Virus record (IMG/VR): IMGVR_UViG_3300032897_000532
Coordinates: 1-20,105 of that record
Reading direction: 5' to 3' (one strand)
Origin: a virus
DNA length: 20,105 bases
Under the pieces are notes generated by a model, which saw nothing but the letters and a program-made list of their open reading frames with translations, was not told where the DNA came from and did not search any database. Both the position numbers and the translations under genes were made by a program. Positions 8,088-17,092 of this stretch are shown here, piece by piece; the stretch's first letter is position 1, and the number at the start of each line of letters is the position of its first letter.

Positions 8088-9083
8088 CTACGGCGAGACT
8101 TTCGCGAGACTATTCTGGGCTGGTTGGTTTCGGCGCACCCAGTTAATTCGATATTTGATGTACTTCGCCACGCGCTCCCGACGAGACGAGTTCCCGGAGC
8201 CAAGGATGTCTTCCGCGATCTCGTCCCAGGTATCCACGCATTCCTGGCTTCGCAGGGATTCCGGGAATACGGCACCGGCGTTCTGAAGTCGCCGGCACAC
8301 TTCGACCAGCCGGGAGGACCAATCCGAACCGATCTCGGATATGACTTCGGCAATCCTGTAATGCTCGTCCGCATTCGCGGGGAAGCCTCTGGGCCTGCGG
8401 CCTGCGGCGTCGGGCATGACGATCGGCCTGCGTCTCTTTATACCCAGTGCGGCGTGCCAGTCTAATGCGAGTCGCCCTTCCGCCGCAGAGGGCGTAAGGG
8501 CAAGAGTTGTTAGCTTGCTTGATGCCAGAATTTGCGCAGCTTCGGTGGACAAACACAGAGCAGCCGGCGTCAGCAGTACGATTCTTCGTTGCGGATCGAG
8601 ACCTGCAAGTCGCCTGCAACGTGCAATCACAGCATCCTCGGTGTGATTCGGAAGTGAAAAGTAGACATCAGCGATTCCCGCCTCATCCACCGATTTCTGC
8701 CCAAGTGAGATGAGGCCATTGTCGTCTCGGAATCCACTTCCCGCGATTCCATTTTCCTTGCGAACCTTCGCAGCCACTCCGACCGCCATCACTTCGTATT
8801 GGCGCACGTCCAATTCGGTCAAAGGAACGGGATCGAAATAGTCATCCTCGCCGGCGACACCGAAAAGCCCACGCGCTGTTTCGCGGACAACCAAGTCTGG
8901 GCCGGGACCGAACCGCTCCGGCCGAGGGATTTCGCTCGCGATCGCAGTCTCGTGCAAGATCGACTCAGAAACAAGCTCGTCAAGCGCCTCCGGTCCGTAG
9001 GCGCTGGCGAACGCGTGCGAGACGACCGGGCAGTCCACTTGGTCGAGCAGATCGAGGACGGCTTGGAGGAGGCTCTCAGCCAC
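8088..9083 (-). CDS. Uncharacterised 331-aa protein, second gene of an unknown two-gene unit
   Basis: GTG start at 9083, with GGAAGA seven bases upstream. The first 8 bp overlap the end of the 373-aa gene, so the two are translationally coupled. The N-terminal third is acidic and helical (VLDLLDQVDCPVVSHAF...). A middle region near 160-200 reads RCRRLAGLDPQRRIVLLTP followed by a helix and LTTLALT, an alternating strand-helix pattern that could be a Rossmann-like half domain. The C-terminus is basic: SSRRERVAKYIKYRINWVRRN near 298-318 looks like a DNA- or RNA-binding helix. No Walker motif, nuclease signature, signal peptide or membrane segment is seen. I do not recognise the family. Setting between a restriction system and replication genes suggests defence or element maintenance (inference). 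Confidence 0.75.
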   Translation of the reverse strand: MAESLLQAVLDLLDQVDCPVVSHAFASAYGPEALDELVSESILHETAIASEIPRPERFGPGPDLVVRETARGLFGVAGEDDYFDPVPLTELDVRQYEVMAVGVAAKVRKENGIAGSGFRDDNGLISLGQKSVDEAGIADVYFSLPNHTEDAVIARCRRLAGLDPQRRIVLLTPAALCLSTEAAQILASSKLTTLALTPSAAEGRLALDWHAALGIKRRRPIVMPDAAGRRPRGFPANADEHYRIAEVISEIGSDWSSRLVEVCRRLQNAGAVFPESLRSQECVDTWDEIAEDILGSGNSSRRERVAKYIKYRINWVRRNQPAQNSLAKVSP

Positions 9084-10197
9084 GGAGGATCTTCCATTTC
9101 CTCAGGTATCGGAACACGTCGTCAGCGTGCTTGACCCTTTTGAACGAAATCTTGTTGGTGCCGCTGAGTTCGATCCGTTTTCCGCGACCGTCGTCAGGGA
9201 ACGTGAACTTGAAGACGGCCCGCTTAATCGCCCCGCCCGACAGTTTCCGGCGCAGGTTGTTCAACTGGAGAGTTTCAAGGACATCCTTTGACTTCACCAG
9301 GAACGACGGCCCGTGTTTCTGCTTGATGGTGAAATACAGTTCTACCAGCGCCGCCGTGTCGCCCGCATCGGTCTCCGGTGCGAAATCCGACGCCCCGATC
9401 ACAGCGAGGTCCAGGCGGCGCGCGGCTTCAGGCCGTTCGAACAAGTTCTCGTCTCCGAGGCAGCACCCCGCGAAATTTTTCCTCAGCGCCGCCTCTTCAA
9501 CCTCAAACCGGGCCTCAATCTCTGCCTGGCCGGTTTTGGTGTTGTAGCTAATGAAGTCCTGCTGAGCTGGCCGCAGAACTGTCGGCGAGACATGGCTGTG
9601 CTTTTGCGAGCCCTTGAACGTGAGCACCGCCTGCATCCGTTTCTCGTGGTAGACGATGAAGTTGACGTATCCGTCCTCCTGATACGGCCTCACGAGCACG
9701 CGATCGCTATTCTTGTCGCCCTTGAACTGGTCGGCAAGTTTCTGACGCAGGTGCTCCGTCGCCGCTGCAAGATCCGTGATCGCCTGCCCCTTCTTTCCCT
9801 GGTAAATCGAGAATCGTTCTGCTTGCTGGAGCGTGCAACGGTCGTAGGCGAAATTGAAAACATCTTCGCGTGCGGTACGAACAGCCAACCCGAGGTGCTC
9901 GACCGTCATCTTGTCGTTGGGATCTGGATCGTAATTGAGATCCCGGCACGCCGATTTGAGCGCTTCGTGCCCGTGTTCGGTACAAAGATCGAATACCCGG
10001 AAGAGACCCTCCATGAAGGCATCCTTGTCGACGCCCTCGCCGTCGGCCAGAAAAGCCTTTAACCCTTCAACATCGAGCGAAGGAATGTCCAAGTCCAGCC
10101 CGTTCTTCCAGAGCTGTGCGTAATTTCGCAGCAACACTTCCTGGCCCTGGAACTTGTCCAGGAAGCGGTCGGCGTTAAATTTCCGGTGCTTAGCCAT
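9076..10197 (-). CDS. Uncharacterised 373-aa protein, first gene of an unknown two-gene unit
   Basis: ATG at 10197 with GAGGG about 9 bases upstream. The protein is highly charged and soluble. Residues 1-60 start MAKHRKFNADRFLDKF and contain a helical pair. A helix-rich section to ~150 follows. Then comes a beta-rich core near 165-250, with VNFIVYHEKRMQAVLTF, a Pro-Arg-Pro step, QQDFISYNTKTGQAEIEARF and a Phe-rich segment ending in LGDENLF. The C-terminal ~100 residues are strand-rich and basic (SGTNKISFKRVKHADDVFRYLRKWKIL). The pattern resembles proteins I have seen only as hypothetical, with phrases like 'YN..TG...I.A' before 'GDE..F'; I can attach no activity to it. It overlaps the 331-aa gene, and a promoter-like sequence precedes it, so the pair appears to be its own unit. 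Confidence 0.75.
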   Translation of the reverse strand: MAKHRKFNADRFLDKFQGQEVLLRNYAQLWKNGLDLDIPSLDVEGLKAFLADGEGVDKDAFMEGLFRVFDLCTEHGHEALKSACRDLNYDPDPNDKMTVEHLGLAVRTAREDVFNFAYDRCTLQQAERFSIYQGKKGQAITDLAAATEHLRQKLADQFKGDKNSDRVLVRPYQEDGYVNFIVYHEKRMQAVLTFKGSQKHSHVSPTVLRPAQQDFISYNTKTGQAEIEARFEVEEAALRKNFAGCCLGDENLFERPEAARRLDLAVIGASDFAPETDAGDTAALVELYFTIKQKHGPSFLVKSKDVLETLQLNNLRRKLSGGAIKRAVFKFTFPDDGRGKRIELSGTNKISFKRVKHADDVFRYLRKWKILRG

Positions 10198-10318: not shown

Positions 10319-10413
10319 CGAAGGAATGTTCTATCGACGCGCGCCGTTTCGAATGAGATGTGCGTCGAACGGGGCGGTTGCCAGGCATACTTCGGTCGGG
10401 GATACCCCGTCAT
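10297..10413 (-). CDS. Possible 38-aa protein, ATGA-coupled to the McrC-like gene
   Basis: ATG at 10413 overlaps the TGA stop of the McrC-like gene (10410-10412). The product starts MTGYPRPKYAWQPPRSTHIS and ends with an Arg/Leu-rich helix. No domain is seen. The junction type fits the operon style, but any TGA preceded by A gives it by chance. A small hairpin (CGGGG/CCCCG, 10397-10409) lies inside the frame. Confidence 0.25.
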   Translation of the reverse strand: MTGYPRPKYAWQPPRSTHISFETARVDRTFLRRLVAEN

Positions 10414-11678
10414 GCTACGGTCCCAACTTCGAGGCGCGCTAACAGTTGCGGAAGGTGCTCCGAGAGATTTCGGACATCGACCGCGAATAGCCAAGTCCGA
10501 CAACCCGTCGCGGACGCGCCGAGATCGCGTTCCTCATACTGGTTTCCAGGAAAAATCAAAAAAGCGCAGCGCGCGCCCAGTGCGGAAGCATGCGCAAGCA
10601 GCTGATAAAGGTCCGATGGTGAGGGAGTCGTTGACCAGGTCTTGTACTTTACGTCTCCAATAGCGTCGACGACTCCGCTCCGAAGAAAAACCAAATCTGG
10701 ATTTGCCCGGTAGGAGTTCGGTTGCGCCGGAAAGAGTGGGGCATTCTTGCCGAGCTGAGTCGCGGGTTTAACTTGTCCGGAGTACTGCTCCTGAAGCCTT
10801 CGTTGAACTGCGATCTGGAACAGATTTTCTAAATTCAAGAACCACGCTCGCGGTACGGTGTCTACACCTTTGGCTCCATGCTCGAAGCTCTCGTGCGCCA
10901 ACACGACCGACGCAAGGTATAGGAGATCGCGATCCTTCGCTGACTGCGCCGCTGAAGCCAGTTGGACTGCATTCTTGACCAGCCGTTCCCTGCTGCCGAA
11001 AAGGAGCTCGGCGTCCTGGCAGTCCGAGAACATCATAGATAGCCCGCGTGCGACTGCGAGATCCTCGCCTGGTATCGAAACAAGCCGTGCCAGCTTTCCG
11101 ATCTCCCGGAGCGCGGCAGCCAACATCCTATTCTTTATGGTGTCCTTTCGGATCGTGGAGCGCTCAAACGCGAGCAGATGCCGAAGACCCCGAGCTCTCA
11201 ACTTCAAAGTTCGCGTCGTGTTCAGTCTGCCGGAAACCATCGAACTTGCGCTGGGCACCGCTCGGTACTCGAACTCTCGCCCCGCCGAGACATACGCCCG
11301 TGTAATCCTCAGAAATTGCCGAATGAGCAAAGAAATCAAATCGCCCAGATCCGACGCTGAGGAAGGCATGTGTTCGATCCTGAACGAATCGGAAGTTGCG
11401 GATTGCAGCAGAGCGGCAACTGCACCGGGGACCTTCTCTGAGAGGTCGAGGACGAATCGGTCGAGCCTGACGCGACCCACGTAGCAGGATCCTTGAAGGC
11501 GCGCTCTACCTCCGGACAACTGGGATACGACGAGAATATTCCGATCCACGAGCGCCCATAGGCCGGCCTCCGATCGGATCTTTGACCAGATCGAAGCAGA
11601 CAAATCAACAGTGCCCCGCTCAGGGACCGAGACGATGAAATGGCTCAGCTGAGAATGAATTCCGGGGACTGATGCCAT
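10410..11678 (-). CDS. mcrC: McrC-like restriction endonuclease subunit
   Basis: 422 aa, somewhat longer than E. coli McrC (about 350). The N-terminal ~130 residues form the McrC-type regulatory half. The C-terminal half carries a PD-(D/E)xK nuclease: NPDLVF with the first Asp at 328, IGDVKYK with Asp342 and Lys344, and DLYQLLAHA near 356, where the family's conserved Gln sits. In McrBC and LlaJI-type systems this subunit is driven by the McrB-like motor to cut DNA that the motor complex has translocated. The ATG lies 33 bases inside the end of the motor gene, a 34-bp overlap that makes tight coupling likely. It ends the restriction-modification cluster. The sequence is intact, with all catalytic residues in place. 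Confidence 0.85.
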   Translation of the reverse strand: MASVPGIHSQLSHFIVSVPERGTVDLSASIWSKIRSEAGLWALVDRNILVVSQLSGGRARLQGSCYVGRVRLDRFVLDLSEKVPGAVAALLQSATSDSFRIEHMPSSASDLGDLISLLIRQFLRITRAYVSAGREFEYRAVPSASSMVSGRLNTTRTLKLRARGLRHLLAFERSTIRKDTIKNRMLAAALREIGKLARLVSIPGEDLAVARGLSMMFSDCQDAELLFGSRERLVKNAVQLASAAQSAKDRDLLYLASVVLAHESFEHGAKGVDTVPRAWFLNLENLFQIAVQRRLQEQYSGQVKPATQLGKNAPLFPAQPNSYRANPDLVFLRSGVVDAIGDVKYKTWSTTPSPSDLYQLLAHASALGARCAFLIFPGNQYEERDLGASATGCRTWLFAVDVRNLSEHLPQLLARLEVGTVA

Positions 11679-12484
11679 GGATACTCCTGCTCGATCAGGT
11701 CGGCGAAAGGGTGAGGATCAATGAGCGGTCGCCGGATGATGTGACGAATCCTCTCGACCCACAAGCGATGCAGGTCTGGAACTTCGGATGTAACATCGGC
11801 GAATATACCGTGCCCGAACGGCATCAGATGGTCATAGTCGGCGGCGAACTGTTCCTTACATGCTGTGAACACTCGCTGGAGTTGCACGACGACCTTTGCT
11901 GGAAGCGCGGCAGGCTTCAACATTTCAGTTAGCTGCTCTATGGATGGCGGAAAGTCGATCACTCTGAGCCGTCGCAAGAGCGCACTGTCGATTTCTATGG
12001 CAGACCGGTCAGTAGGATTGTAGGTAGCTATGATTGTGAGGTTCTTTGCCACCTCTACCGGCCGCCGGCTATACACCGTTAGGAAGGGCCGGTCCCTATG
12101 CTCTATATACGTCATCAGCTCACCCAGGACCGCGGACAAATTGGCGCGTGTGAGCTCCTCAATTAGTAGAACGTAGCGATGGTCGGGATCTTCGCGGGCT
12201 TGGTCATTCCACTCAAGAAAGATTCCTGGCAATACATTCACGGCTCCACTGCTGTCGATCCGCATGCCTTCTATAAACTCTTCATACGAGAAGGCTTGGT
12301 GAAACTGGACTTCCCTGACCAGAAGCGGCTCGCCGGCGAAACGTTGCGCTGCGATGGACGCCATGAACGACTTCCCTGTCCCTGGGACCCCCGCCAGAGC
12401 GATGATGGATCGAGTTCCCGATCTTTCGCACGATTGAACGACCTCTTGGATCTTCGCTTCCGTGGCACTGCCGTAGTTAGTCAT
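11645..12484 (-). CDS. McrB-like AAA+ NTPase (restriction motor), stand-alone domain
   Basis: 279 aa from ATG 12484, which overlaps the preceding TGA as ATGA; the ATG at 12505 is less likely. Walker A GVPGTGKS at 32-39, the McrB-family segment FHQAFSYEEFIEGMR at 61-75, Walker B LLIEEL at 106-111 followed by TRANLSAVLGEL, and the signature NPTDRSAIEIDSALLRRL at 156-173. The McrB signature normally reads NTADRS; here it is NPTDRS, and the usual Asp-Glu of Walker B is Glu-Glu, so nucleotide preference (GTP in E. coli McrB) is uncertain. At 279 aa it is essentially the motor alone: E. coli McrB (about 460 aa) has an N-terminal DNA-binding domain that is missing here. The neighbouring 276-aa protein may supply target recognition. 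Confidence 0.85.
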   Translation of the reverse strand: MTNYGSATEAKIQEVVQSCERSGTRSIIALAGVPGTGKSFMASIAAQRFAGEPLLVREVQFHQAFSYEEFIEGMRIDSSGAVNVLPGIFLEWNDQAREDPDHRYVLLIEELTRANLSAVLGELMTYIEHRDRPFLTVYSRRPVEVAKNLTIIATYNPTDRSAIEIDSALLRRLRVIDFPPSIEQLTEMLKPAALPAKVVVQLQRVFTACKEQFAADYDHLMPFGHGIFADVTSEVPDLHRLWVERIRHIIRRPLIDPHPFADLIEQEYPWHQSPEFILS

Positions 12485-13311
12485 CTGACGTCCTTCGGCA
12501 GACACGCCGCCTCTGCAATGAACTCGACATATGCGCGCTTCTCGGTGCCGAAGTCACGGTGCCGGTGCCGGATAGCCGCGGCCTCCTGAAGTATTCCTCT
12601 AGTGCGCGGCCTGATCGTGTAATAGCCCTCTACTTCGCCTGCCCGCTTTTCTGCGATGAGGGTCCAGCCGAAAGAAGCAATAGAGATCCAAGGAATAACG
12701 CGATCATTCTTCTTGTCGCCGGTTATGGTTTCTTCACCCATGAGATCAAGATCGTTCTTGAGGCGCGATTCTCGAATTGCCTCGATAGCTTGGTACAGTT
12801 GGTCCTCATTGGTGACCTTGAACATCGCCCGGTTGAGTTCGTCTGAGCTTATTCGACCATCCAGGGCGAACATGGCGCGCCAGATGTAAGAAAACGGAAA
12901 CACGCGCACGGCGGCGTCATACGGTTGGACCCCTATCGGATTCCGCAACTGACAGGCCGCGAGCGCGTACGCAGCATGCCGACCAAGCAACGTTACATTC
13001 TTCTCGGACAGCAGGGGAAGCCATCTCAGGGTCGCCCGCCCGAGTTCCGTTACGTGAAGTGCCCCGCCATCCTCGTACACCAAGCCGGCGGTCTCATAGA
13101 TTTGCCGGTAGTCCCGATATCGTTTCGCATCGGGGACGGCGCCGGCTGTGCCACGCGACCGACTGCGGTCATAGGGGAGCTTCTGCAGAACGTCCTCCTG
13201 CGTCAGGCCATCGCTTTCCAAGAAAGGTTGCAGGTGCCCAAGCGGCTTAGGCAACAATCGGAATGTCGTATGGAGAGAGCCACCCCACTCGGTTCTCGGT
13301 TCTCTTGACAT
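12481..13311 (-). CDS. Restriction-associated protein, probable winged-helix, in the position of BsuMI YdiR
   Basis: 276 aa from ATG 13311, five bases after the stop of the second methyltransferase; the ATG at 13368 would run into that gene and is rejected. The N-terminal ~100 residues read like a winged helix: helix (HLQPFLESDGLTQEDVLQKL), a basic loop with two Arg pairs, helix (KRYRDYRQIYETAGLVYEDG) and a wing-like hairpin ending in HVTELGRATLRWLPLL. The central part holds AMFALDGRISSDELNRAMFKV, resembling a second helical DNA-binding unit, and the C-terminus is basic (RPRTRGILQEAAAIRHRHRDF). Gene order (two m5C methylases, this gene, McrB-like, McrC-like) matches my recollection of BsuMI ydiO-ydiP-ydiR-ydiS-ydjA. 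A role in DNA recognition for the restriction complex is the best guess. Confidence 0.7.
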   Translation of the reverse strand: MSREPRTEWGGSLHTTFRLLPKPLGHLQPFLESDGLTQEDVLQKLPYDRSRSRGTAGAVPDAKRYRDYRQIYETAGLVYEDGGALHVTELGRATLRWLPLLSEKNVTLLGRHAAYALAACQLRNPIGVQPYDAAVRVFPFSYIWRAMFALDGRISSDELNRAMFKVTNEDQLYQAIEAIRESRLKNDLDLMGEETITGDKKNDRVIPWISIASFGWTLIAEKRAGEVEGYYTIRPRTRGILQEAAAIRHRHRDFGTEKRAYVEFIAEAACLPKDVR

Positions 13312-13316
13312 AATGA

Positions 13317-14447
13317 TTAAGCTGTCGGCCGCGAGAATAGCGGAAGCTGATCGACGCCTGTGGTGCAAACGTCTTGGTCAGCCCCGGCTGGTTCGGAACG
13401 TAAGAACGAGAGATAGCTGAACAACGCTTTGCCGATGACTTGAGCGAGCCGCGGCGGAACGGCATTCCCGATCAACGCCGCCATCTCCTCTTGGCTGCCG
13501 CTGAAGCGAAATGTGTCGGGGAACGTCTGGAGACGCGCGCCTTCGCGAAGCGTGATGTTCCTGTGTGAAAAAGGATGCGCGAACTTCCCCCGCGTGAAGC
13601 TGTCAAACCGGGCTGTTATGGTTCCGGCTGGCTGATTGGCATCAAGGCGGCCATAGACGTATCTGTGACCAATGCGGTCGGGCCCGTCCTTGTGGCAGTC
13701 AACTCTCATCTCAACGGGCAGACTCTCAAAGCCCTTGCCAGGGGGGATGAGCTTGAGGCGTTCAATATTGGTGGGAGAAAGTCGATGCCTTTTGTGCAGC
13801 GGATCAGACGGTTGCGGAGAATAGTCCTCCGGTGGCTCCGGGAGGTCGCCGATCGCCTTCCACACCGTAACATAAGAATCGCTGTCATGAGTTGGGCGCG
13901 GAAAAACGAACGGGACTGGGACGTCGCGCCTCCATCCGTAATAGAGAACGCGCTTTCGGAGTTGCGGAACGCCGTAATCGGCGGCGTTAACACGAATCGA
14001 TCGCACTTGGTATTGGGGATAGAGCGCCTGTTCGAATCTGTGGGCGGTTGCGCCCCCCCGCTTTCCAAGCAGGCCCAGGACGTTTTCCATCAGGAAGACA
14101 GTCGGCTGAAGCTCGTTGACGTATCTCGCGAACTCCAAAACCAGGTCATTGCGATCGTCTGCGTCTTCTCCAATTCGCTGTACGGAGAACCCTTGACAGG
14201 GCGGCCCGCCGGCGACCAGGTCGACCTTCATATCAGAATTGCCGGTCAGCGACAAGAACTCCTGTGCCGAGAGCTTTCTGATGTCATGGTGCAGCGCGGG
14301 ATGATCGAAGTTCAGGCCGTAGCACTGGCATGCGAGCTTCCAATTGTCGAGGGCGCCCAACACGTTGAAGCCCGAGGTCTGTAAACCCAGGGACAGCCCG
14401 CCGGTGCCGCAAAACAGATCTACGGCGGTGAACATCGTGTTCGTCAT
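13317..14447 (-). CDS. DNA (cytosine-5) methyltransferase 2 of the R-M cluster
   Basis: 376 aa; ATG at 14447 (a second at 14435). All main C5-methylase motifs are present in order. Motif I is DLFCGTGGLS at 10-19 (SAM binding). Motif IV is GGPPCQGFS at 80-88, with catalytic Cys84. Motif VI is MENV at 120-123, motif VIII QLRKRVLYYGW near 162 and motif X IGNAVPP at 326-332. The target-recognition region, about 200-275, is different from that of the upstream methylase. Length is standard for the family. It should methylate the fifth carbon of a cytosine within the site protected from the McrB/McrC-type nuclease. Two methylases are usual in LlaJI/BsuMI-type systems, where each may cover one strand of an asymmetric site. 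A 66-bp gap (14448-14513) separates it from its partner. Confidence 0.93.
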   Translation of the reverse strand: MTNTMFTAVDLFCGTGGLSLGLQTSGFNVLGALDNWKLACQCYGLNFDHPALHHDIRKLSAQEFLSLTGNSDMKVDLVAGGPPCQGFSVQRIGEDADDRNDLVLEFARYVNELQPTVFLMENVLGLLGKRGGATAHRFEQALYPQYQVRSIRVNAADYGVPQLRKRVLYYGWRRDVPVPFVFPRPTHDSDSYVTVWKAIGDLPEPPEDYSPQPSDPLHKRHRLSPTNIERLKLIPPGKGFESLPVEMRVDCHKDGPDRIGHRYVYGRLDANQPAGTITARFDSFTRGKFAHPFSHRNITLREGARLQTFPDTFRFSGSQEEMAALIGNAVPPRLAQVIGKALFSYLSFLRSEPAGADQDVCTTGVDQLPLFSRPTA

Positions 14448-14513: not shown

Positions 14514-15950
14514 CTACCACAGCCGTTCCTGCCCGCAACTCAAATCACCCGAAGGCCCCGTCCGCCAATCGCGGGCCTTCAGAGAAGGGATCATCCGCGA
14601 AAAAGAATGTCCCAACGGGCGTTCCACGCCGTGATCCACTTCGGATTCCGGCAGTTCCACACCTAGAAGCTCTCCTAGGATGTGCATCGCAAGATGAGCG
14701 GCGAAGGTAGGCGGCACGGCATTACCAACCTGCCTGAAGCGCTCATCTAACGAGCCATGGAACCAATAGCTTCTTGGAAACCCTTGAAGCACGGCCGCCT
14801 CTCGGACTGAAAGCCCCCTATCCTGTTCCGGATGCACAAACCGCCCGCTCGCCGGGTTGCGTGAATAGGCCGTGATCGTGATCGCCGGTTTGTCCCACGA
14901 CAATCGGCCGTACACGTCCTCGTAGGCGGCTTTCCCTTGGCGTTCCGCGACACGTCGTAGGCACGCCGGGCCGACATCCGCAGGACGGCTACCACCGTCT
15001 TTCGGCACAGCGCGTATTGTCGCCAATGTGGATTCCTGGTGACCGGCGGTATAGTGCATCTCATCTTTGGCGAATCGCTCGCCGGCCTTGATCCTAGGAA
15101 GATCCCCGATCGCGTCCCGGACGGTTCGGTACTTTGGACGACCTAGGAATCCGCTTGGAGCCCTGAACGGTTGCCGCATGGCCAGAAGCACGGCTCGGAA
15201 CCTCTCCTGCGGTACCCCGAACGCAGCCATGTTGTGGACGCCGATGTGGACGTGATAGCCGGCCCTTTTTAAGATGGCGCGCGCCTCCAAGACGAATGGC
15301 CAATACTTGTGCGTCAATAGCTCCGGCACATTTTCTACGACCACAGCCTCAGGACCGAGCCGCGCCGCGATCCTCGCAAAGTCGAGGAACAATGAATTCC
15401 GCTGATCGGATTCCCCTGCGCTATTGCGGTGTGATGAGAATCCCTGACATGGGGCGCAGCCGATCAGAACGAAGGGCAGCCCTCTCCGCGGCTCTGCTAT
15501 TTGCTGCAGTTTGGCGAATGCCGTCTGGCGCCGCGCGATTTCTGCCACGTCCGATTCTGCCGGTCTGAGCGCCAGATTACGCTCATAGGACCGATTCGCG
15601 ACGTGGTCAATATCGACAGCGTGGACAAGGTCAAACACAGGAAGCAGGCCGTTCACGGCACGGAACCCCGTTGACATCCCACCGCATCCGCTGAACATGT
15701 CGATGACCTTGACGGGGCCGTTCGAGCGGCCTTCTGAGAGGTTCCAGTAGCGATCAAGATTCAGAGCGAGTTCGATTCCGCAGACGCGTGCCGCCATCCG
15801 TGGGTCCAGTCGCTTGCCACCACCGCTCAGCTTACGTCCCTTTGCAATCACGGATGCTGTCAAGTCTCGGAGCAGCTTCTCGGGCTGACCGGCTGCTATT
15901 CGCCCAGCGACCTTTCGAGCCGCGCATGATGGTTGTTCTCCGGTAGGCAT
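14514..15950 (-). CDS. DNA (cytosine-5) methyltransferase 1 of the R-M cluster
   Basis: 478 aa. Its ATG shares one base with the TAA stop of the ribbon-helix-helix gene (TAATG), so the two are coupled. An 80-residue basic N-terminal extension precedes motif I DMFSGCGG at 84-91. Motif IV is GCAPCQGFS at 164-172 with catalytic Cys168, motif VI VENVPE at 205-210, motif VIII QERFRAVLLA at 248-257 and motif X QVGNAVPP at 407-414. The target-recognition region spans about 270-360. The 60-residue tail after motif X, with a charged end, has no known counterpart. The catalytic set is complete. The N-terminal extension might bind DNA or contact a partner; some C5 methylases use such extensions as operator-binding domains, but this one shows no clear HTH. 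Confidence 0.93.
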   Translation of the reverse strand: MPTGEQPSCAARKVAGRIAAGQPEKLLRDLTASVIAKGRKLSGGGKRLDPRMAARVCGIELALNLDRYWNLSEGRSNGPVKVIDMFSGCGGMSTGFRAVNGLLPVFDLVHAVDIDHVANRSYERNLALRPAESDVAEIARRQTAFAKLQQIAEPRRGLPFVLIGCAPCQGFSSHRNSAGESDQRNSLFLDFARIAARLGPEAVVVENVPELLTHKYWPFVLEARAILKRAGYHVHIGVHNMAAFGVPQERFRAVLLAMRQPFRAPSGFLGRPKYRTVRDAIGDLPRIKAGERFAKDEMHYTAGHQESTLATIRAVPKDGGSRPADVGPACLRRVAERQGKAAYEDVYGRLSWDKPAITITAYSRNPASGRFVHPEQDRGLSVREAAVLQGFPRSYWFHGSLDERFRQVGNAVPPTFAAHLAMHILGELLGVELPESEVDHGVERPLGHSFSRMIPSLKARDWRTGPSGDLSCGQERLW

Positions 15951-16147
15951 TAGACTTTCCTCGCGGTTTGCTCGGATGAACCGAGCTTTTCCTTCTCTCT
16001 TTCCTTTTCGGCATTTAGGAAGTCGCGGACGAGCTTCGCGATGAGAGTGCTCTTCTTGAAACCATGCTCCCGACAGTAGTCGGCGAATCGCCTAAACTCC
16101 TCATTCGGCAGGAGAACCGTGATCTTGCCAATGTTGGATTTGGCCAT
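15950..16147 (-). CDS. Ribbon-helix-helix (Arc/CopG-type) regulator of the R-M operon
   Basis: 65 aa from ATG 16147; longer upstream starts would run through the promoter and operator and are rejected. The protein reads MAKSNIGKITVLLPNEEF: a short basic lead, a beta strand KITVLLP, then helix FRRFADYCREHG, turn FKKS and helix TLIAKLVRDFLNAEKEREKE, the classic RHH plan, in which paired strands insert into the major groove. A lysine/glutamate-rich tail follows. The promoter 22 bp upstream carries a perfect 16-bp palindrome between its boxes, a fitting site for an RHH dimer pair. The most likely role is autorepression and timing of the R-M operon, comparable to the C-proteins of other restriction systems. 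Confidence 0.75.
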   Translation of the reverse strand: MAKSNIGKITVLLPNEEFRRFADYCREHGFKKSTLIAKLVRDFLNAEKEREKEKLGSSEQTARKV

Positions 16148-16169
16148 TTCGCTTATTCTTCGCCTCTGT

Positions 16170-16198
16170 AGGATACCGCAAAAGTGCGCACTTTTCAA
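16170..16198 (-). promoter_or_regulatory. Promoter of the RHH-methyltransferase-restriction operon
   Basis: Minus strand TTGAAA (16193-16198), exactly 17 bp, TATCCT (16170-16175). The -10 ends 22 bp before the ATG at 16147, leaving a leader of roughly 15 nt. It is the best sigma-70-type promoter seen in the window and lies in the 91-bp gap between vsr and the RHH gene. Confidence 0.68.
16180..16195. promoter_or_regulatory. Palindromic operator within the R-M promoter
   Basis: AAAAGTGCGCACTTTT is a perfect 16-bp palindrome filling most of the 17-bp spacer and reaching into the -35 box. A bound protein would block RNA polymerase. The adjacent RHH protein is the obvious ligand; the methylation state of its GCGC centre could also matter. 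Confidence 0.68.
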
Positions 16199-16238
16199 TA
16201 CCTTTTCGCAGTACTCCGGAGAAAGGCTGATTCGAGTG

Positions 16239-16652
16239 TCAGGACTGCGCTTTGAGAAACCGCGAAACGACGCGCTCCAGCGTCCGGTCGGCAGCGAGCT
16301 GACACTCCCACAGAACGAGCACCTTCCACCCATCGTGTCGCAATTGCCGTATCGCCTTTGCATCTCGCCTAACGTTGTTCAGCAGCTTCTCCCTCCAATA
16401 CGAAGCGCGCGATTTTGGCAACGCCGATCGAACGCATCCGGTGTGCTGATGCCAGAAGCAGCCATGAACAAAGATCACCCTCTTCAATTTGCGAAAAACC
16501 AGGTCCGGCCGGCCAGGGAGGTCGGAGCAGTGAAGACGGTACCGAAATCCCATTGAATAGACGAGCCTTCGCACTAGCAGCTCGGGACCGGTGTCGGCTG
16601 CGCGTACTCGCCTCATGATCTCGCTGCGTTCTTCTGGGGTGAAGCGATCCAT
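16239..16652 (-). CDS. vsr: Vsr very-short-patch mismatch endonuclease
   Basis: 137 aa, the usual Vsr length; ATG at 16652 with AAGGA three bases upstream. Visible family residues: N-terminal RSEIMRRVRAADTGPE (Glu24), PGRPDLVF with catalytic Asp50, IFVHGCFWH with His63, Cys65/His70/Cys73 and Cys117 as the zinc site, and NVRRD with Asp97. Vsr nicks 5' of the T in T:G mismatches made when 5-methylcytosine deaminates. It therefore protects the sites methylated by the two adjacent C5 methylases. It sits just upstream of the R-M promoter and is read from the integration-module side, or from a promoter not seen in the 32-bp gap before it. The Thr preceding the catalytic His in E. coli Vsr is Val62 here. 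Confidence 0.93.
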   Translation of the reverse strand: MDRFTPEERSEIMRRVRAADTGPELLVRRLVYSMGFRYRLHCSDLPGRPDLVFRKLKRVIFVHGCFWHQHTGCVRSALPKSRASYWREKLLNNVRRDAKAIRQLRHDGWKVLVLWECQLAADRTLERVVSRFLKAQS

Positions 16653-16684
16653 CTATCCTTCTTGAGAAATCAAGCTTATCGCAA

Positions 16685-17092
16685 TTAGCCCACACGCCAC
16701 TCCGAACGCCAGTGCTGACGTTGATCGCCCCAATGAACAAGCCCCGCTAGCGGCCTGAGCAGGGTTTCGCGCATCGTAGAGCACGTTGCGATCCCGTTCA
16801 GTTCCAGAATCTCCATTTGGATATCCGGCGCCAAATTAAGCAGGTTCATTATCTGGGTGATCCGCGCACGAGAGACGTAGCCGAGACGTGCAAGGTCGGC
16901 GTAGTCCCGGACCTCGCCACGGTCAACCATGTCCTGGAATTTGATTGCGAGAGCCATCAACCGCGTGATCCTAGGGATGCGCGGTGGGTCCGGCACCCTG
17001 GGCACAGCCGGGCTGCGATGCTGGCCGCCCTTGCGGCCCTTCGCCGGGGCAATGGTGATTTCGATCTGGAGCATCTCGTCGTTTGTCTTCAT
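16685..17092 (-). CDS. Small HTH protein of the recombinase module (ParB-like helix-turn-helix)
   Basis: 135 aa. The ATG at 17092 overlaps the recombinase stop as ATGA, so translation is coupled. The first 40 residues are basic and Pro-rich. Residues ~41-92 are helical with a clear HTH: RGEVRDYADLARLGYVSRARITQIMNLLNLAPDIQ, close to the KorB/ParB-type HTH in wording. The C-terminus is Trp/Arg-rich (LVHWGDQRQHWRSEWRV). Proteins of this kind follow large serine recombinases in many integrated elements. It could be a recombination directionality or regulatory partner, but that is inference from position. No catalytic residues are seen. Confidence 0.72.
   Translation of the reverse strand: MKTNDEMLQIEITIAPAKGRKGGQHRSPAVPRVPDPPRIPRITRLMALAIKFQDMVDRGEVRDYADLARLGYVSRARITQIMNLLNLAPDIQMEILELNGIATCSTMRETLLRPLAGLVHWGDQRQHWRSEWRVG

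Follow-up and report, generated by a model that had tools for sequence, protein, structure and literature searches.

Organization of the operon and its predicted promoter

The stretch of DNA analysed here, referred to as the window, comprises 20,105 bases of a record with a viral classification and carries on its minus strand an anti-phage restriction-modification (R-M) operon of six genes in the order RHH, M1, M2, U, McrB-like and McrC-like, a layout like that of BsuMI, LlaI and LlaJI. The first gene (15950-16147) encodes a 65-aa protein, MAKSNIGKITVLLP...ARKV, which is assigned to the ribbon-helix-helix (RHH) proteins by its predicted fold, by family alignments and by weak Pfam matches in relatives. 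Its stop codon is fused with the start codon of M1, with a single A in common (TAATG), just as a preliminary description of this DNA had stated. M1 (14514-15950; PF00145, 3.7e-53) and M2 (13317-14447; PF00145, 4.9e-61) are both C5 cytosine methyltransferases. Between M2 and the McrB-like gene lies U (12481-13311), a 276-aa protein without a family match, followed by a 286-aa McrB-like AAA/GTPase subunit (11645-12505; AAA_5, 8.3e-18; McrB model PRK11331, 1e-28) without the N-terminal DNA-binding part, and by a McrC-like nuclease subunit (10410-11678; PF10117, 7.4e-20) in which a PD...DVK motif (NPDLVF...GDVKYK) can be read from the sequence. Upstream of the operator, a gene for a Vsr mismatch endonuclease occupies 16239-16652 on the same strand (TIGR00632, 1.5e-40); Vsr is found at many related loci and is absent from some.

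It has been reported that LlaJI consists of two C5 methyltransferases, a McrB-like R1 and a McrC-like R2, and that BsuMI and LlaI have three-ORF restriction cassettes with a small McrB-like subunit (PMC1459862). Compared by layout, the window operon resembles LlaJI in its two C5 methyltransferases and its McrB-like and McrC-like subunits, and resembles BsuMI and LlaI in its three-ORF restriction part with a small McrB-like subunit. The combination of two C5 methyltransferases, a McrB-like NTPase and a McrC-like PD-(D/E)XK nuclease is that of the LlaJI/BsuMI type, whereas McrBC systems of the modification-dependent Type IV have no cognate methyltransferases in the operon, unlike the window operon with its M1 and M2. 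The U protein is probably a separate target-recognition subunit for the McrBC-like nuclease, as suggested by a structural model of modest-to-low confidence (pLDDT 67) that resembles the DNA-recognition domains of BpuJI (Foldseek E 5.5e-4, probability 1.00) and N.BspD6I. Judging from this model, the site of the system may perhaps be asymmetric, and an asymmetric target would fit the need for two methyltransferases. Homologs of U occur at other loci, which are cited by handles (L002, L009, L011, L023, L024 and L055), and a search of viral contigs with U returned L002 only. U-like segments are also seen inside larger proteins adjoining M1-M2 at L045 (7673-10003), L046 (3167-6304) and L052 (5190-6815), one of which has an HNH nuclease domain, the others having weak AAA/STAND or sacsin-like matches. 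Downstream of McrC, two genes encoding proteins of 373 and 331 aa (10197-9076 and 9083-8088 of the window), without any Pfam, NCBIfam or PADLOC match, are possible further defence genes.

The putative promoter of the operon (minus strand, 16170-16198) consists of TTGAAA at 16198-16193, a 17-nt spacer and TATCCT at 16175-16170, and it is the only sigma-70-like match within 15900-16700, a region for which shuffled sequences average 0.2. Its -35 box and spacer are overlapped by the proposed operator, a perfect 16-bp palindrome, AAAAGTGCGCACTTTT, at 16180-16195, with arms of 8+8 that are 100% complementary and with a conserved core, AAGTGCGCACTT, at 16182-16193. The preliminary description, which had placed a 16-bp palindrome within the frame of TTGAAA-17-TATCCT, was accurate in all its observations.

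The AlphaFold (AF2) model of the RHH protein, with a pLDDT of 83 overall and over 90 in the core, predicts an extended N-terminus and helices at 15-28 and 32-57. The model of the monomer lacks the N-terminal beta-strand, which is what one would expect of a strand that pairs between subunits. The predicted structure agrees with the beta-alpha-alpha fold of MetJ/Arc/CopG members, which have an N-terminal strand and two helices. Its matches among PDB structures are overwhelmingly RHH proteins (CopG, Arc, NikR, PutA, MazE, ParD), with Omega (1irq) as one among many, at weak Foldseek E-values of 0.07 and above, which are usual for a 65-residue chain. The window protein matched no RHH family of Pfam or NCBIfam at E 0.01; in Pfam searches with the relatives, RHH_9 was found weakly in four of 11 (best E 0.002) and ParG in one. 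A PDB sequence search with the RHH profile gave weak matches, mostly to 14-3-3 proteins, which were taken as chance, and ParG at E 0.33. The family alignment reveals conservation of K-I-[TS]-V-L-L in the strand and of G-[FY]-K-K-S-[TS]-L in the helix-helix turn. The strand and the helix-helix turn are the DNA-contacting parts of RHH proteins. Across these methods, the assignment of the predicted fold shows good consistency.

Distribution of the RHH gene and the operator motif

When about 85,000 genomes were scanned with an M1 alignment, 80 loci were obtained. The viral contig L002 carries the same six genes, with an M1 that is 53% identical over the full alignment, and profiles made for each gene placed RHH homologs directly upstream of M1 in L020, L024, L040, L047/L048, L051 and L055 as well as in viral L002, L007 and L019. 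Of the 14 lineages sampled, 13 have such a homolog immediately before a C5 methyltransferase gene. Homologs with 38-56% identity to the window protein precede such genes, overlapping or at a short distance, in L002, L007, L019, L020, L024, L040, L051, L055, L117, L125, L126 and L130, and the methyltransferases of the RHH-bearing systems share as little as about 25% identity among them. Four of these loci, L117, L125, L126 and L130, serve as an out-of-sample check, in that they were located by RHH alone with the methyltransferase unused. L117 is Acidithiobacillus phage AcaML1 (JX507079.1), in which an unannotated RHH gene with its operator (about 8989-9204) precedes one Dcm methylase that is accompanied by McrB and McrC, and the same locus is present in genome G521. 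In the three genomes of L125, L126 and L130, RHH stands directly before a C5 methyltransferase each time, that of L125 being assigned by M1/M2 profiles only. The search with the RHH family alone also led to L100 (4523-5183), where Vsr, the operator TTGAAAAGTCCGCACTTCTGCG and RHH are present with no methyltransferase behind them; an R-M operon has probably been lost from this locus and left them as a remnant.

Only one new strong match, G521, came from surveys of two classes (385 and 369 genomes), and surveys of the family and order revealed three more, so the RHH family is rare. Exactly one copy is present in each of the seven RHH-bearing genomes tested, and none was found in five genomes holding RHH-less relatives. 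No close RHH relative was found in the plasmids searched, and a search of viral contigs with RHH alone, using window-specific peptides, returned nothing, family alignments being needed. Weak RHH matches at L112-L115 were left out of the counts, since these proteins, NikR-like or of other RHH kinds, do not belong to the family.

The preliminary description had proposed looking for the palindrome upstream of homologous operons as a check on its reading, and when this search was run the motif proved to be conserved. An unbiased 7-mer count over 150 nt before the RHH start codon of each of the 14 lineages, compared with 300 dinucleotide-shuffle sets, gave the half-site AAGTGCG/CGCACTT as the most widespread word, present in 12 of 14 regions, where the best shuffled word reached at most 5 of 14; most of the other top 7-mers are pieces of the same motif or of the -35 box. 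The exceptions are L117, which has the one-mismatch form AAGTACGCATTT, and the subclade of L019, L047 and L048, which has kept RHH and has no copy of the motif. At RHH-less loci, in stretches of about 400 nt, the heptamer occurs in 2 of 34 of the M1 family and in 0 of 48 more distant methyltransferase loci (Fisher P about 1e-7, a value that is indicative since the loci are related). The two copies, in L027 and L044, are read as background, as 2 in 34 stretches fits about 0.2 per kb.

The core AAGTGCGCACTT itself is present upstream of RHH in L002 and L007, and AAGTACGCACTT in L040 and L055. L002 carries AAAAGTGCGCACTTcT upstream of its RHH homolog, so that 14 consecutive bases (AAAAGTGCGCACTT) recur at a place where the flanking intergenic sequence does not align well. 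The upstream regions of L020 and L051 hold AGAAGTGCG-N8-CGCACTTCT and TGCGCACTT-N8-AAGTGCGCA, respectively, and L024 has one half-site that adjoins the start codon. Perfect or one-mismatch 12-mers are found in the window, L002, L007, L040, L051, L055, L100, L117 and L126, and a single good half-site only in L024, L125, L126 and L130. Conservation is restricted to the inner 12 bp, the outer A/T pairs being variable.

It could be argued that the palindrome is the site of some other host factor or arose by chance, and that the RHH protein acts elsewhere. Perfect palindromes of at least 16 bp are not rare, as 0.54 of them are expected per 20-kb window of such composition; the probability that a perfect 16-bp palindrome falls in the 91-bp gap between Vsr and RHH is about 0.002, and AAAAGTGCGCACTTTT is the sole palindrome of such length in the window. 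Against this argument, however, the palindrome and RHH are conserved together in several bacterial families, and relatives that have no RHH mostly lack the palindrome, and we give this explanation next to no weight. Comparative conservation is stronger evidence against chance than the palindrome odds.

Candidate mechanism of control and its alternatives

Based on the anatomy of the locus, the fold predicted for the RHH protein, the joint occurrence of its gene and the motif and the common position of the gene, we propose that the RHH protein is an autorepressor of methyltransferase-led R-M operons and a functional stand-in for C proteins, a reading to which we assign a probability of about 0.75. 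The preliminary description had suggested an RHH autoregulator in place of the usual HTH C protein, and this suggestion gains support from the finding that RHH and the half-site co-occur across divergent R-M systems. An R-M operon entering a new cell must make methyltransferase before nuclease. Under the proposed mechanism, an RHH dimer would recognise AAGTGCGCACTT (half-site AAGTGC) via its N-terminal beta-strand (GKITVLLP), and the bound protein would block RNA polymerase at the window promoter, whose -35 box and spacer it would cover. The RHH protein would thereby set the level of itself, of both methyltransferases and of the U, McrB and McrC genes behind them, since its gene is the first of the operon, is presumably co-transcribed and is closely spaced with M1. 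When the operon is new to a cell, the promoter would fire freely because no RHH protein is present yet, and the methyltransferases would be made first; as RHH accumulates, expression would settle at a low and self-limited level. Such a role in timing would be the job of a C protein carried out with another fold.

An alternative is dual control like that of C proteins, in which RHH would activate when low and repress when high, giving a delayed and bistable rise of the restriction genes. The position of the motif relative to the promoter varies among loci, and L020 has its operator a short way upstream of the -35 box, which is compatible with activation. Moreover, RHH holds the position of XRE-type regulators in relatives, and L020, L051, L055 and L130 have paired dyads spaced by 10 or 20 bp, a ten-base phasing of secondary half-sites that is suggestive. 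However, the operators of the window, L007 and L100 lie over the -35 box and spacer, so that polymerase should be blocked by a dimer bound there, and the RHH regulators Omega and PaaR are strictly repressors (PMC3874152). For these reasons repression is favoured and dual control appears unlikely; activation from an upstream site might occur with an arrangement such as that of L020.

The preliminary description had also raised the possibility that methylation of the GCGC centre tunes expression, which would mean that M1 or M2 methylates GCGC or an overlapping site, alters RHH affinity and so reports host methylation, as in LlaJI or CfrBI. The window operator does contain GCGC, the operon encodes C5 methyltransferases, and LlaJI expression, as cited in PMC11779793, is governed by methylation or binding at promoter sites. 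However, GCGC is lost in L040, L055, L100, L117, L125 and L126 with the rest of the motif kept (L040, L055 and the variant of L117 have GTACGC as their centre, L125 and L126 have TACGC, and L100 has TCCGC), and the same motif serves methyltransferases of about 25-35% identity. Because GCGC is dispensable across operators and the methyltransferases differ, the suggestion does not hold up as a general principle, and we consider it very unlikely. In addition, the 91-bp gap has no GACGC/GCGTC or CTCGAG, although the target of the window system may differ from these. Unlike LlaJI, which is regulated by its own methyltransferase and promoter sites, the window operon has a separate RHH gene and operator.

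An antitoxin-like RHH protein might also bind the methyltransferase or McrBC subunits, the complex modulating operator binding (conditional cooperativity). Many of the fold neighbours are indeed RHH antitoxins (ParD, MazE, TacA, AtaR), and the close coupling with the methyltransferase is conserved, but the C-terminal tail of RHH, which in antitoxins is the toxin-binding part, is short and not conserved. RHH also travels with unrelated methyltransferases and with restriction parts that differ, which makes it unlikely that a partner surface has been conserved, and such an additional function seems extremely improbable.

Known control proteins and exchange of controllers

Three modes of transcriptional control have been recognized in R-M systems, by a C protein, by methyltransferase activity and by methyltransferase binding, and the C proteins of Type II systems are XRE helix-turn-helix proteins (PMC3978073). 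The proposed autorepressor shares with C proteins such as C.AhdI, C.BclI, C.Csp231I and C.Esp1396I a small regulator gene heading an R-M operon and a palindromic operator in its own promoter, but it is predicted to have an RHH fold instead of the XRE HTH fold and has another operator. RptR, which represses defence islands with Type I R-M systems (PMC12255303, 2025), is similar as a small repressor that heads an R-M operon, has a short palindromic site and shows a strong genetic association with R-M, and differs in its HTH-like all-helical fold, its TAGCTA direct repeats and its Type I partners. The RHH regulators Omega (of omega-epsilon-zeta) and PaaR have already been likened to C proteins (PMC3874152). 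They are also RHH repressors encoded upstream of the genes that they repress, but their targets are toxin-antitoxin operons rather than methyltransferase and restriction genes. We found no description of an RHH controller of an R-M system in the open-access literature, and an earlier one elsewhere is possible.

To explain the distribution of RHH on the methyltransferase tree, 8 gains or losses are required, and well-supported branches force at least 5 of them; several members are only about 25-35% identical, and their long branches leave exact placement unsure. The slot of RHH in RHH-less relatives often holds, as read from the sequences, XRE-type HTH genes (L012, L028, L033, L034, L036-L039 and L042) or, in L014 and L031, excisionase-like HTH genes. 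The M1-M2 core has RHH in Proteobacterial members and XRE-type or excisionase-like HTH proteins in others, and since relatives fill the same slot with HTH genes, RHH appears to sit in a controller position and to be exchanged for other controllers.

In this respect, the finding is broader than first proposed, as the comparison of sequences points to an RHH-operator module that recurs among C5 R-M systems. We regard it as an evenly balanced question whether these regulators form a class of R-M control proteins not described before, in which a portable module with a common operator was joined on several occasions to C5-methyltransferase R-M systems that are unrelated, one of them phage-borne. 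If they do, the module would represent an independent solution beside HTH C proteins, methyltransferase self-control and RptR. With one operator sequence common to all, such systems could cross-repress and fall into incompatibility groups, as is the case for C proteins, and its conservation between systems makes it directly testable whether R-M systems residing in one cell regulate or exclude one another. The motif together with a 60-aa RHH gene would also provide a simple search handle for R-M operons on mobile elements.

At several loci a serine recombinase and a protein of 126-139 aa that contains an HTH-like stretch lie just ahead of the R-M operon (window 18627-16685; L002 4896-6583; L019 and L047, upstream of RHH; L130 2931-4186). 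This neighbourhood suggests a common integration or cargo site of R-M operons.
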